In this document: in pieces, positions 2,265-16,729 of the stretch
Position numbering within the stretch: position 1 is the first letter of the stretch
How the letters are laid out: each line of letters starts with the position of its first letter
Assembly (NCBI GenBank): GCA_035574915.1
Contig: DATLYJ010000071.1
Location: 1-48,888, forward strand
Direction of reading: 5' to 3'
Origin: Dehalococcoidia bacterium
GTDB taxonomy: Bacteria; Chloroflexota; Dehalococcoidia; DSTF01; WHTK01
DNA: 48,888 bases
Notes under the pieces: generated by a model
Databases searched by the model: none
What the model saw: the letters and a program-made list of their open reading frames with translations, nothing else
Told to the model about the DNA's origin: nothing
Program-made: the position numbers and the translations under genes

Positions 2265-3149
2265 TCAGAGCTCGGCGGTCATCACCTCGAGGCTGATGTC
2301 CAGCGCTCGCGCCGAGTGAGTAAGGGAGCCTGAGGAGACGAAGTCGACACCCGTCTCCGCGATCTCGCGGATGTTCTCCAGCGTCACGCCGCCCGAGGCC
2401 TCGAAGAGGCAGCGCCCGCGCGCCATCTCCACTATCTGCGCCATCAAGGGCGGCGGCATGTTGTCCAGGAGCACGATGTCCGCTCCGCCCTCGATCGCCT
2501 GCTGAGCCTCCTCCAGGGTCGTGACCTCGATCTCCACCCGCAGCGTATGAGGCGAGAGGTCCCGCGCCCGCTTGATCACATCGGGGATGCTCAGCCCGCG
2601 CGAGCGGCCCGCGGCGATATGGTTGTCTTTGATCAGGACCCCGTCCGCGAGGTTGAAGCGGTGGTTGAAGCCGCCGCCCATGCGTACGGCGTAACGCTCC
2701 AGCACGCGCAAGCCGGGCGTCGTCTTGCGCGTGTCGAGCACGCGCACCGGAAGTCCCGCCACCGCCTGTACGAAAGCCCGCGTGGTAGTGGCGATGCCGG
2801 AGAGGCGCTGCAAGAAGTTCAGCGCCACGCGCTCGGCCGACAGGATGGCCCCCAGAGGCCCCACCACGGACGCGAACTCCGTCCCGGCGTGCACCCAGTC
2901 TCCGTCCACCACGCGCGTCCGCAGCTCGATCTCAGGGTCGACTGCCGTAAAGGCTGTCGTCGCGACGGTCAGGCCGCAGATAACGCCGCTCTCCTTGGCC
3001 AGGAAGTTGCCCCGCCCCTGCTGGTCAGGCGGCACGATCGCGCTGGTAGTGACGTCGCGGAAAGCCCCGTCCTCGACCAGGGCCGCCCGGACGAGGTCGT
3101 ACACCTGGCCGGGGTCGGGGAATGGTATCTCGTCCAACCTGTCACGCAT
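2265..3149 (-). CDS. nadC: Nicotinate-nucleotide pyrophosphorylase (carboxylating)
   Basis: Quinolinate phosphoribosyltransferase converts quinolinate and PRPP to nicotinate mononucleotide, CO2 and pyrophosphate in de novo NAD synthesis. The 294-residue protein has the family signature [10 protein letters not shown] followed by an [16 protein letters not shown] segment and LIKDNHI, the phosphoribosyl-binding core. Further on are [18 protein letters not shown] and EASGGV, the barrel residues that contact quinolinate and PRPP. The length is typical. Its ATG (3147-3149) lies inside the end of nadB, an 8-base overlap that points to translational coupling. No nadA (quinolinate synthase) is present in the window. 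Confidence 0.97.
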
Positions 3150-4752
3150 CGCGACGGAAGATTATGTGGCGCCTCCAGGCGTCGTCCGGGTGGGGAAAGT
3201 CGACGCGATAGTGCGCGCCCCGGCTCTCCTGGCGGATGAGCGCGCCCTCAGTGACCAGCCGTCCCGCCGTGAGGAGGTTGCGCAGCTCGTGTGAAGGGCG
3301 GTCCGATGGTGGCGGCGCAGAGCGCTCCCACATTGCCAGGGTCAGGGCGGCTTCCGCGAGGCCTTCGCCGCTTCGTACGATCCCCACCTTGTCCCACATG
3401 AGCGCCTGCAGCGCCGCAAGGCTAAGCGGTGTCTCGGCGAAGGGCAAAGCGCGCGCCGGCGCGCCGATACGCGGCAGCGCCTCGCCTCCCGGGCGGTAGA
3501 TGCCGGCCTTCAGGTCCTCCGTGGAGGCGTCCGGCAGCGGCCGGGCGTCAGCGGCAGGAGGCGTTGGTGTGGCGGTCCCGCTGAGCGTGCGCTCGACCAC
3601 GCGCTTCGCGAAGACCACCGTCTCCAGGAGCGAGTTGCTGGCCAGCCGGTTCGCGCCGTGCACGCCCGTGCAGGCCACCTCGCCGCAGGCATAGAGGTTG
3701 CCCACGTTCGTCTCGCCCCAGGAATTGGTCCTCACTCCACCCATCATGTAGTGGGCCGCCGGCGAGACAGGGATCGGCTCGCGTGTTATGTCGAGGCCGT
3801 ACTGCGCGCAATAGCGGCGGATCTGGGGAAACCGCGCCGCCGTGCGCTCGGCGGGCAGGTGTGTGATGTCCAGGTACACCCGGTCCGTGCCCGTCTTCGC
3901 CATCTCGCTGACGATGGCCCGCGCCACGATGTCCCTTGGCGCGAGCTCGGCACGTTCGTCGTAGTCGGGCATGAAACGCCGGCCTTCGCTGTTGATCAGG
4001 CGGCCACCCTCGCCGCGCACTGCCTCCGAGATCAGGAAGACGGGTACGCCGGGCAGCCGCAGGGCGGTAGGGTGGAACTGGATGAACTCCATGTCCATGA
4101 CCTCGGCGCCGGCGCGGTAGGCGAGCGCCACGCCGTCGGCGGTCGCGACGGGCGGGTTGGTACTGACTTTGTACAGCTGCCCGCAGCCACCGGTCGCGAG
4201 CACCACATGGCGCGCCTCGAACTCCTCCGTGGTGTTCGCGCGCGTGTCCAGGGCCACGATGCCCCGGGCGGCGCCATCTCGTATCACGACCTCGAGGGCA
4301 AGGCTGTGCTCGAGAATAGTCACGCGCGAATGGCGCGCGACCTCGCTCAGCGTCAGCTCGATGTGCGCCCCGGTCGAGTCGCCCCCGGCGTGGAGGATGC
4401 GCGGGCGGCTGTGCGCACCTTCACGCCCCAGCGCGACCTCGCCATCGACGGTGTCGAAGGGGACGCCGAACTGCACCAGGTCGGCGATGCGGTCCGCAGC
4501 CTCCGAGGTCAGGATGCGCGCCGCCTCCTCATCCACCAGCCCCGCGCCGGCCTCGATCGTGTCCTCGAAGTGCAACTCGGCGCTGTCGTCAGGACCGACC
4601 GCCGCGGCGATGCCGCCCTGCGCGTACTTGGTGTTGCACTCGTCGATGCTGCCCTTCGTCAGCACCAACACGCTGCCGTGGTCGCGGGCCATGAGGGCGG
4701 CGTAGAGCCCGGCGATGCCAGAGCCTACGATCACGTAGTCGAAGAAGCGCAT
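3142..4752 (-). CDS. nadB: L-aspartate oxidase
   Basis: A flavoenzyme that oxidises L-aspartate to iminoaspartate, the first step of de novo NAD synthesis. The 536-residue protein starts with the FAD Rossmann motif VIVGSGIAGLYAAL. It has TKGSIDECNTKYAQGGIAAA, the HPTAL substrate-loop region and the C-terminal FAD motif GEVACTGVHGANRLASNSLL, all diagnostic for the fumarate reductase/aspartate oxidase family. The ending (DFPHPDD..WRRHI) is typical for NadB. It is the first gene of a nadB-nadC operon with an 8-base overlap. The ATG at 4752 lies 45 bases from an operator-like palindrome that covers the probable -10 box, so repression when NAD is plentiful is likely (inference). Confidence 0.97.
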   Translation of the reverse strand: MRFFDYVIVGSGIAGLYAALMARDHGSVLVLTKGSIDECNTKYAQGGIAAAVGPDDSAELHFEDTIEAGAGLVDEEAARILTSEAADRIADLVQFGVPFDTVDGEVALGREGAHSRPRILHAGGDSTGAHIELTLSEVARHSRVTILEHSLALEVVIRDGAARGIVALDTRANTTEEFEARHVVLATGGCGQLYKVSTNPPVATADGVALAYRAGAEVMDMEFIQFHPTALRLPGVPVFLISEAVRGEGGRLINSEGRRFMPDYDERAELAPRDIVARAIVSEMAKTGTDRVYLDITHLPAERTAARFPQIRRYCAQYGLDITREPIPVSPAAHYMMGGVRTNSWGETNVGNLYACGEVACTGVHGANRLASNSLLETVVFAKRVVERTLSGTATPTPPAADARPLPDASTEDLKAGIYRPGGEALPRIGAPARALPFAETPLSLAALQALMWDKVGIVRSGEGLAEAALTLAMWERSAPPPSDRPSHELRNLLTAGRLVTEGALIRQESRGAHYRVDFPHPDDAWRRHIIFRRDA

Positions 4753-4781: not shown

Positions 4782-4797
4782 CGAAGCGCGAACAGTA

Positions 4798-4831
4798 AGT
4801 GTCATTATGACACTAAGTCGGCTGCTGTCTA
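4798..4831 (-). promoter_or_regulatory. nadBC promoter with an overlapping palindromic operator
   Basis: On the minus strand a -35-like TAGACA (4826-4831) and a -10-like CATAAT (4804-4809) are 16 bases apart. AGTGTCAT, one base, then ATGACACT (4798-4814) form a perfect 8-bp inverted repeat centred on the -10. A protein bound there would block polymerase, so this is a candidate operator for an NAD-biosynthesis repressor. The repressor gene is not in the window, and I cannot say whether it is of NrtR, NiaR or another family. Confidence 0.65.
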
Positions 4832-4854: not shown

Positions 4855-6093
4855 TCAGGCGTAGCGGCGGAAGGCCAGGCAGGAGTTCTGGCCCCCCAGG
4901 CCGAACGAGTTCGAGAGCGCGGCTCGCACCGTAGCCTTGCGCGCCTTGTTCGGCACGTAGTCGAGGTCACAGTCAGGGTCCGGGAACTCCTGGTTGATCG
5001 TCGGCGGGATCACCTGGTCGCGCAGGGTGAGGACGCAGACGGCCGCCTCGAGGGCGCCGGCGGCGGCGGCCAGGTGGCCGGTCATCGACTTCGTGGAGCT
5101 CATGGCGATGCCGTAGGCCTGCTCGCCGAACACTTTCTTCACGGCCGCCGTCTCCGTCTTGTCGTTGAGCTGGGTCGATGTGCCGTGGGCGTTGATGTAG
5201 TCGATCTCTTCCGCGTCCAGCCGCGAGTCCCTCAGCGCGCGCTCCATCGCCAGCGCCTGGCCGTCGACGTCCGGCGCGGCGTCATCGGTTGCGTCGAAGG
5301 ACCAGGCCGCGCCGGCAAGCTCGCAGATGATCGGCGCGCCCCTGGCCCGCGCGAACTCCTCGGTCTCGAGCACCAACACGGCGCTGCCCTCGCCCAGCAC
5401 GAAGCCGCTGCGCTTGGCGTCGAAGGGCCGCGAGCCCCGCTGGGGCTCGTCGTTCCACGTCTTGCTCAGCGCGCCGAGGTTCCCGAGGGCCGCGATAGCC
5501 ACGGGCGTGATGATCGCCTCGGAGCCTCCGGCGAGCATGCACTGCGCGTATCCGAGGCGCAGCATGTTCAGGGCCTGGCCGATGGCGTCGCCACCGGAAG
5601 CGCAGGCGCTGTTCACACTCGAGTTCGGCCCGCGGACCTCGAGCAGCCGGCCGACGCGCGCGGAGGCGCTGTACTGCCCGACCCGAGGCACCGTGAGCGG
5701 GTCGACCCTCTGGGGCCCGCGCTCCTCGATGACCCTGTCCTGCTCACCGATCGTGAACAGAGTGCCGCTGCTGGCGAGGACTACGCCTATGGCGTCGCGG
5801 TTCGAGTCGTCGATCCTTAACCCTGCCGCGGCGAGCGCCTCGTTCGCGGCGGTCACGGCCAGCTGCGTGTGGCGGCCGGAGCGGCGCGCCGTGCGGCGGT
5901 CCATGTAGTTGTCGGGGTCGAAGCCCTTCACTTCCGCGGCGATCTGGACGTCGAAGCCGGTGGGGTCGAAGTGCGTGATGCGCGTTAGGCCCGACTGCCC
6001 AGCGAGCATCGCTGCCCATGTCGACCCGGTATCCAGGCCGAGAGGGGAGACGATGCCAACGCCCGTCACTACGACCCGCGGGAAGTCCGGCAT
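4855..6093 (-). CDS. fabF: Beta-ketoacyl-ACP synthase II, first paralogue
   Basis: A condensing enzyme that extends acyl-ACP with malonyl-ACP in type II fatty acid synthesis. The 412-residue protein has the thiolase fold motifs in order: VVVTGVGIVSPLG at the start, the nucleophile Cys164 in NSACASGGDAIG, the first His in INAHGTSTQLND and the second His in STKSMTGHLAAAAG. The end NSFGLGGQNSCLAFRRY is typical. The Cys-His-His triad is intact, so it should be active. Its ATG overlaps the stop codon of the upstream hydrolase (ATGA), indicating coupling. A second KAS II lies at 12971-14221. One of the two may be dedicated to a special lipid rather than bulk synthesis (inference). Confidence 0.95.
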   Translation of the reverse strand: MPDFPRVVVTGVGIVSPLGLDTGSTWAAMLAGQSGLTRITHFDPTGFDVQIAAEVKGFDPDNYMDRRTARRSGRHTQLAVTAANEALAAAGLRIDDSNRDAIGVVLASSGTLFTIGEQDRVIEERGPQRVDPLTVPRVGQYSASARVGRLLEVRGPNSSVNSACASGGDAIGQALNMLRLGYAQCMLAGGSEAIITPVAIAALGNLGALSKTWNDEPQRGSRPFDAKRSGFVLGEGSAVLVLETEEFARARGAPIICELAGAAWSFDATDDAAPDVDGQALAMERALRDSRLDAEEIDYINAHGTSTQLNDKTETAAVKKVFGEQAYGIAMSSTKSMTGHLAAAAGALEAAVCVLTLRDQVIPPTINQEFPDPDCDLDYVPNKARKATVRAALSNSFGLGGQNSCLAFRRYA

Positions 6094-14302: not shown

Positions 14303-16729
14303 TTAGCGCGCCACCACGCGGTCCTTTCGCTTCTGCATCACCAGCGTCAGCGCCAGCGGCACGACGATGAAGGCCGCGAGCACAGACCAGTGCACCACGG
14401 CGTCTATGGTGAAGGCCCTCACGTACGGCTCGGCGAAAGGCGCCGGCAGTTGGGCCGCGAAGCGGTCCGCCATGCTCGTTATACTGGCCCCCAGCTCCAG
14501 CGACCACCGGCTCAAGACCACGTTGGAGAGCATCCGCGCCGGCGCGAGCATTTTCTCCACAGGCACGAACGAGCCGTCGAAGATCAGCTGAGGGATCAGC
14601 AGCATGGGCACCAGGGCCATCGCCTGGTCCGAGTTCGCCACCGCGCCGCTAACGAGGAGCCCCATGGTCAGGCCCGCCAGCGCCGTCATGAACGTCAGCA
14701 GGACGAGCAGCGGATAGACATCCCAGCCGATCTGCCCCACGTCCACACGGAGCAGGACGATGCTCACCAGCGCGAACGCCTGGACCAGGCAGAGCACCGC
14801 CAGCACGATGACCTTCGAGCCTATGTACGGGACGACGCCGAGGTTGACCAGCCGTTCTCGGGCGTAGATCGCGGTCTCGCTGCTTATCGCTCTCGCCGCG
14901 TTGAAGGCGCCCAGCCAGATCGCCGAGAGCACAAGGCCCTTGAGCGCGGCGGTGGCCAGCAGGGCGTCGCCGCCCTCGTCCGCGGTCAGCGCGAAGATGT
15001 CTGCCTGGAAGAGCAGGAGGAGAGACAGCGCGATGGCCGGCGCCTGCAGGAGCAGCAGGCCCAGGTATTTCGGGTCCCGAGCCATGACCTCGGCGTAGCG
15101 GAGGGTGAGCCAGAAGAGCTGCCTCAGGCCAGAGGCCCCGCGGGTCCGCGGCCCGCTGACCGGCTGAGGCCTGGCGCCGGCTGCCGGCGCCGCGAGCGCC
15201 GGCCTGCGCTCGACCACATTCGCCTGGTAGACGCGCGACTGTTGAAACGAATCGACCCACTTCTCGGTGGCACCCTCCCCGTTCAGGAGGTCATAGACCT
15301 CCCCGAAGGTCGAGCAATGGAAGTGCCGGAGGCACTCAGCGGGCGAGCCGAAGAACACGAGCCTGCCCTGCGAGAGCCAAGCGATCTTGTCGCAGAGGCC
15401 CAGGCTCTGCGTGGAGTGAGTAGAGAGCACGACGGTCGCACCGTCCTCGGTCAGGCTCTGGAAGAGCGCCATCATCCGGCTCTCCAGCGCGGGGTCCAGG
15501 CCTGAAGTTGGCTCGTCCAGGAAGAAGGCGCGCGGCGTCGCCAGTAGCTCCACCGCCAGGCTCAAACGCTTGCGCTGACCGCCGCTGAGCAGGCTCACTG
15601 CCTTCCGGCGGTGCTCGGACAGGCCGACGGTCTCCAGGACCTCCTCGATGCGCTTCTCCAGCTCCGCCTTCCCCATGTCCCCTGGCAGCCGGAGGCGCGC
15701 GGCGTAGAAGAGGGTCCGTTCCACCGTCAGCTGCGTGTGGATGATGTCGTCCTGCGGCAGGTAGCCGATCGCCGTCCTGAACACGGGGAGATTCGCGTAA
15801 AGGTCGGTGCCGTCGAACTGTACGGCGCCCTCGGTGCCCGGCGAGAAGCCGTTCAGCGCATGGAGCAGCGAGGTCTTTCCGGCCCCGCTCCCGCCAACCA
15901 GGGCCACGAATTCGCCGGGGACGATCGAGAGGTTGATCCCATCCAGGATGCGCTTGCTTCCGACGGTCTTGCCAAGGTCGATGGCGTCAATCCGGACGCC
16001 GCGGCCATGGCTGAACGACTTTACTTTGAGGCCATCGAGGTAAACGCGGCTCGTGCCGACCAGCACCTCGTCTCCGTCCCGCAGCTCTGCCTCTTTGATG
16101 CGCTGGCGGTTTACGTAGGTGCCGGTGGTCGAGCCTTCGTCCGTGATGATCCAGCGGCCATCCTGCCGGCGTATGCGAGCGTGGAGGCCGTCAACGTGGG
16201 GGTCATTGATCTGCAGGTCGTTCTCCGCCCAGCGCCCGATGGTGAACTCCTCACGCTCGGGCGTGAGCGTCAGCAGGGCTACGGCCTCGTTCTGGAAGCG
16301 ATGTACATTGCCGTGCGACACACGCTGGGCCAGGACGCGGCTGATCTCCTCGTTGATCTGGGGGTACTGCGCCAGCAGGGCCTGGAAGCGCTCCCGCGTG
16401 AGGCGCCAAAGGCTTGCGTCCGTGGTTGCGATCGCGGCCGCGGAGCGGGTGTCGCCCGAGAGCAGGGCCATTTCACCGAAGAAGTCGCCGGGCGCCAGGT
16501 GAGCGAAGACCACCTTCTCGGTAGCCGCGTCTGAAACGATCCTGACCTGCCCCCGGGCGATGACGAACATCTCCTCGCCCGGCTCGCCCTCGCGGAAGAT
16601 CACGGCGTCGCGCGCGTACTCGACCAGCTCAAGGCTCGCGGCCACGGCCGCGAGCTCCTCGGGCGAGCAACGCGAAAAGATCGGGACCGCCTTCAGGCCC
16701 GGGACGCCCTCGCCCGTTACCGCGGTCAT
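14303..16729 (-). CDS. Cyclic-nucleotide-binding/FHA/ABC-2 transporter fusion
   Basis: An 808-residue fusion. Residues about 15-130 are a cyclic-nucleotide-binding (CNB) domain with the phosphate-binding cassette FGEMALLSGDTRSAA, where Glu86 and Arg95 are both present. Residues about 160-232 are an FHA phosphothreonine-binding domain (EFTIGR, GLHARI, DEGSTTGTYVN). Residues about 245-475 are an ABCG-type ATPase: Walker A GGSGAGKT at 279-286, signature LLSGGQRKRLSL and Walker B AFFLDEPTSGLDP. The last 270 residues hold about six membrane helices of ABC-2 type. FHA-ABC-TM fusions are known in mycobacteria (Rv1747), where they export cell-envelope glycolipids; the added CNB domain is unusual. Its ATG overlaps the stop of the upstream patatin gene (ATGA). 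Probably a lipid exporter gated by two signals (inference). Confidence 0.88.
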   Translation of the reverse strand: MTAVTGEGVPGLKAVPIFSRCSPEELAAVAASLELVEYARDAVIFREGEPGEEMFVIARGQVRIVSDAATEKVVFAHLAPGDFFGEMALLSGDTRSAAAIATTDASLWRLTRERFQALLAQYPQINEEISRVLAQRVSHGNVHRFQNEAVALLTLTPEREEFTIGRWAENDLQINDPHVDGLHARIRRQDGRWIITDEGSTTGTYVNRQRIKEAELRDGDEVLVGTSRVYLDGLKVKSFSHGRGVRIDAIDLGKTVGSKRILDGINLSIVPGEFVALVGGSGAGKTSLLHALNGFSPGTEGAVQFDGTDLYANLPVFRTAIGYLPQDDIIHTQLTVERTLFYAARLRLPGDMGKAELEKRIEEVLETVGLSEHRRKAVSLLSGGQRKRLSLAVELLATPRAFFLDEPTSGLDPALESRMMALFQSLTEDGATVVLSTHSTQSLGLCDKIAWLSQGRLVFFGSPAECLRHFHCSTFGEVYDLLNGEGATEKWVDSFQQSRVYQANVVERRPALAAPAAGARPQPVSGPRTRGASGLRQLFWLTLRYAEVMARDPKYLGLLLLQAPAIALSLLLLFQADIFALTADEGGDALLATAALKGLVLSAIWLGAFNAARAISSETAIYARERLVNLGVVPYIGSKVIVLAVLCLVQAFALVSIVLLRVDVGQIGWDVYPLLVLLTFMTALAGLTMGLLVSGAVANSDQAMALVPMLLIPQLIFDGSFVPVEKMLAPARMLSNVVLSRWSLELGASITSMADRFAAQLPAPFAEPYVRAFTIDAVVHWSVLAAFIVVPLALTLVMQKRKDRVVAR

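Follow-up and report, generated by a model that had tools for sequence, protein, structure and literature searches.

The window, a 48,888-nucleotide stretch of DNA analysed as a whole, carries nadB for L-aspartate oxidase (3142-4752, minus strand; TIGR00551, 549 bits) and nadC for nicotinate-nucleotide diphosphorylase (2265-3149, minus strand; TIGR00078, 317 bits), with both matches above the respective cut-offs. The two genes overlap by 8 bp, and nadB is the first gene of the operon. About 150 bp downstream of nadC, at 1570-2118 on the same (minus) strand, is a gene of the P-loop kinase-like type (AAA_33, with a weak resemblance to chloramphenicol phosphotransferase). A gap of 102 bp separates nadB from fabF (4855-6093, minus strand), and within it lies an exact 17-bp palindrome, AGTGTCAT-T-ATGACACT, at 4798-4814 (centre 4806), the end of which is 45 bp from the nadB ATG (4752). 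The minus strand from 4818 to 4794 reads ACTTAGTGTCATAATGACACTTACT, and the real element is hence 25 bp long, extending beyond the 17-bp core. This full element (4794-4818, minus strand) was assigned as a putative NrtR operator from its PWM score and its recurrence in the same genome.

A predicted nadBC promoter overlaps the palindrome. Its -35 box, TAGACA (4826-4831, minus strand), is separated by a 16-bp spacer from the -10 box, CATAAT (4804-4809, minus strand), which is preceded by TG and lies at the operator centre. TAGACA-16-CATAAT has 10 of 12 consensus matches, is directed toward nadB, and was the sole promoter-like site found on either strand between 4600 and 5000 (0.0 +/- 0.2 in shuffles). 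No terminator was found near the palindrome in this interval. The palindrome, the promoter across it and the 45-bp distance are as given in the preliminary description. The significance of the palindrome is due to its recurrence at nad genes, and the palindrome is not unusual in itself: two single-base-centred palindromes with 8-bp arms are present in the window, the other being centred at 15182, and ~1.9 are expected from composition, so that palindromy alone is little proof. A second copy of the 17-mer was not found in the window at up to 3 mismatches (0.03 expected, dinucleotide shuffles).

The genome (3.25 Mb in 183 contigs, 96% complete) was searched by patterns and loci. The scan for the 17-bp motif that the preliminary description had proposed gave a second exact copy, which lies on contig C142, ~45 bp before nadA, where the 25-bp element is a perfect palindrome. 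The 21-mer pattern TTAGTGTC-N5-GACACTAA, with at most 1 mismatch allowed outside the centre, has four sites in the genome, at nadB, nadA, nadE and ribE, and a reversed-pattern control gave none. The sites outside the window are at C142:3452 before nadA, at C118:12693-12713 (L003:1499-1519), where the site covers the nadE start codon, and at C114:2271-2291 (L004:1499-1519), ~21 bp ahead of the start of the riboflavin synthase gene ribE, which is followed by ribBA. Here, in genome G001 and in the genomes of family f4, the nadE operator lies over the start codon or immediately beside it. The window nadB site has a PWM score of 41.1, whereas nothing in 400 kb of random sequence scored above 4.1; the site is among the 27 on which the PWM was trained.

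A single protein with an NrtR winged helix is encoded in the genome (C142:1236-1862, 208 aa; NrtR_WHD, 5.9e-25). Its gene shares the contig with nadA, 1.7 kb upstream of it, and a regulator beside another nad gene, as had been anticipated, is thus present. The protein consists of NUDIX and NrtR_WHD domains (PF00293, 65.5 bits, and PF21906, 86.7 bits, both above cut-off), and its Nudix box is broken (GX5EX7-RKLVDETGV), with two conserved glutamates replaced by K and D; the catalytic signature, GX5EX7REUXEEXGU, and its loss in NrtR-type regulators have been described (PMC4666351). Of the named NrtR loci, those most similar come from MAGs assigned to Dehalococcoidia (62%) and Chloroflexi (57%). 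Among PDB sequences, the best matches are NrtR-family regulators: AraR is the closest (3.4e-37), the Shewanella protein 3gz5/3gz6 also matches (4.8e-26), and residues 116-201 match NadQ (7q91). The NCBIfam equivalog for an ADP-ribose-responsive repressor, NF050029, scored only 157 bits against a cut-off of 400. Since NrtR_WHD passes its own cut-off, this model is taken here to cover less than the whole family. The low NF050029 score therefore weakens mainly the assignment of ADP-ribose as the effector, and the effector may differ from ADP-ribose given that the closest PDB sequence, AraR, is an arabinose-responsive NrtR relative.

The extended motif and NrtR_WHD were compared across 148 relatives. 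NrtR was found in 21 of 22 motif-positive genomes vs 31 of 126 motif-negative ones (Fisher test, p = 2e-10, with the genomes being related and not independent samples), and the only motif-positive genome without NrtR is 72% complete. When the pattern TTAGTGT-N7-ACACTAA was included as a union, the co-occurrence gave p = 2e-16. Absence of the motif from the nad promoters of relatives would have spoken against a repressor site, and within the order PWM sites were found at nadA in 17/17, at nadB in 11/15 and at nadE in 12/17 of the genomes where each gene was found; the order-wide PWM was built from nadA, nadB and nadE sites, and many of the counted sites belong to its training set, while the f2 sites, the f4 sites and all ribE sites lie outside it. 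In G002, one of the four genomes without a nadB site, nadB directly follows nadA and shares its strand. Paired operators 38 or 51-52 bp apart precede nadA in several relatives (L016:1463 and 1501; L021:164 and 202; L028:1501 and 1553; L029:1450 and 1501).

The exact pattern TTAGTGT-N7-ACACTAA is present in 64 of 393 genomes of the class, and 46 of the 48 distinct sites examined with the half-sites TTAGTGT...ACACTAA lie just before nadA, nadB or nadE. Some NrtR-bearing relatives of other families do not have the exact motif. The inner bases vary by family, being GTGTC...GACAC in f1 and f3 and GTGTAC...GTACAC in f4. The NrtR family is known for lineage-specific motifs, and these differences are as would be expected of a drifting NrtR motif.

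Promoters, predicted here from the consensus, accompany nearly all of the operators. Of 30 sites, 28 have a suitably spaced TTGAC-type -35 box upstream, which puts the operator over the -10 box or directly against it. The preliminary description had placed the operator centre on the -10 box, and this is correct for the window nadB promoter but particular to it. At nadA, nadE and ribE in this genome the operator starts just after the predicted -10 box, and in the sister family the left arm of the nadB operator itself provides the -10 box (TTGAC[CG]-17-TAGTGT, five genomes). All of these arrangements would fit a repressor that blocks polymerase, with the centred -10 box as a local variant.

The regulator resembles SoNrtR of Shewanella oneidensis (3gz5/3gz6) and MsNrtR of Mycobacterium smegmatis (PMC6800001) in having an N-terminal Nudix domain with an impaired signature and a C-terminal winged helix, and the ~23-bp palindromic operators ahead of NAD synthesis genes are likewise shared. 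The MsNrtR motif is GTTTTCGA-N7-TCGAAAAC (PMC6800001), as compared with TTAGTGTC-N5-GACACTAA here. The regulon here differs in taking in nadE and ribE, and there is no sign of autoregulation, whereas MsNrtR is an auto-repressor (PMC6800001). No operator was found before nrtR in this genome and the order genomes checked (nine order genomes), and autoregulation by this motif was rejected. This difference from MsNrtR, like the relatives of other families without the exact motif, counts against the assignment to NrtR. In its favour, distant NrtR loci of other phyla (Kapaibacterium, Ignavibacteria) have related, TTAGTGTAAAATTAACACGAA-like palindromes ~120 bp before nrtR itself. Bacteroides AraR/XylR (5bs6, PMC4666351), which include the best PDB sequence match, have the same domain order but govern pentose genes, with AraR answering to L-arabinose, whereas the targets here are NAD genes.

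An operator for a different NAD regulator (NiaR, NadQ or NadR), or for an unrelated repressor with the same targets, is an unlikely reading of the palindrome. The known NAD repressors all use palindromes near nad genes, and NiaR, too, represses NAD genes. However, NiaR has a 3H domain, and no 3H-domain protein was found in the genome by a search that recovered the controls from Bacillus subtilis and Thermotoga maritima; hence, no NiaR is present and this candidate was rejected. NadQ (COG4111; 7q91) has a C-terminal winged helix homologous to that of the regulator, and its targets are also shared, with nadABC as the core and nadE/nadD added in some lineages. Nevertheless, only the C-terminal part of the regulator (116-201) matches NadQ, full-length similarity being absent, and the published NadQ consensus, ttATRCTCannntGAGYATaa (PMC5343134), is unlike the operators found here. 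Moreover, the only NrtR_WHD protein of the genome carries a NUDIX domain, and the strong co-occurrence of motif and NrtR_WHD also argues against any other NAD regulator.

Still less probable is an RNA-level element, in which a hairpin in the 5' leader would act as an attenuator, terminator or block to translation. The nadE palindrome covers the start codon here and in G001 and could hide it in such a hairpin, but the predicted -10 box lies inside the palindrome at nadBC and in several relatives, so that the palindrome would be largely untranscribed. A terminator or attenuator was rejected, as no terminator-like site was found near the nadBC palindrome, and a riboswitch was rejected, as none of the four loci of this genome had an Rfam match at gathering thresholds, including one to the FMN riboswitch before ribE. 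That a palindrome simply fell on a promoter by chance, given the ~2 expected per window from composition, is least credible of all and is refuted by recurrence: the 17-mer is identical at nadA, related sites occur at nadE and ribE, and the sites are conserved across families.

An encoded regulator with an impaired Nudix signature, a palindrome of ~21-25 bp placed before NAD genes and conserved in relatives, the overlap with predicted promoters and the co-occurrence of motif and regulator are all observed directly. The repressor of NAD genes suggested in the preliminary description can thus be narrowed to one family, and the palindrome is very probably (roughly 0.92) an operator of the Nudix-related repressor NrtR controlling de novo NAD synthesis. 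An NrtR dimer would bind both TTAGTGT half-sites. Once bound at nadBC, the repressor would mask the -10 box and stop RNA polymerase there, and at nadA, nadE and ribE the block would fall immediately downstream of the -10 box. A signal of need derived from NAD turnover, most likely ADP-ribose as in other NrtR proteins, would then release NrtR and permit transcription of nadBC, nadA, nadE and the ribE-ribBA operon. ADP-ribose releases NrtR in Shewanella and Synechocystis, and a Corynebacterium homologue responds to NAD (PMC4666351).

The operator itself is of a known kind, but the regulon including ribE may be new. Literature searches for NrtR together with riboflavin or with Chloroflexi, with the founding NrtR paper (PMC2330246) outside the comparison, gave no description of a link between NrtR and riboflavin genes. 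The PWM, never trained on ribE sites, gave the ribE site of this genome a score of 41.8, and scores of 12.3-31.4 were obtained in all 7 genomes of the sister family f3 with ribE (L077, L078 and L080-L084), against the random 400-kb maximum of 4.1. The f3 sites are asymmetric, ACTTAKYGTTA...TGACACTAACT, with a weaker, degenerate left half. In G001, f2 and f4, and likewise in the genomes examined from beyond the order, ribE has no such site. NadB is a flavin enzyme, and co-control of NAD and flavin would therefore make metabolic sense.

In family f23, the motif was also found near genes for ADP-ribose handling. In G160 it lies before an ADP-ribosylglycohydrolase gene and also between VWA and dienelactone hydrolase genes (L235:1983-2003 on C3; L214:1501-1521 on C1), and in G069 a tandem pair lies between ARPP-1 and dienelactone hydrolase genes (L073:1405-1425 and 1439-1459 on C13). 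ARPP-1 was absent from the six other genomes searched in the genus. These few genomes are suggestive of NrtR control of ADP-ribose handling in f23. On balance, we lean slightly towards NrtR as a joint cofactor regulator in this lineage, with one repressor answering to NAD status and governing the synthesis of both NAD (nadBC, nadA, nadE) and flavin (ribE-ribBA). In a related family, its targets would further include enzymes of ADP-ribose processing, and as ADP-ribose is the likely effector of NrtR, this would close a feedback loop.

For a class that is largely uncultured and is probably Dehalococcoidia, the sites described here point to a concrete NrtR regulon under conservation, and their motif offers a search pattern for any genome of this class. 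If the conserved ribE site is functional, a repressor of NAD synthesis would also set the supply of flavin.
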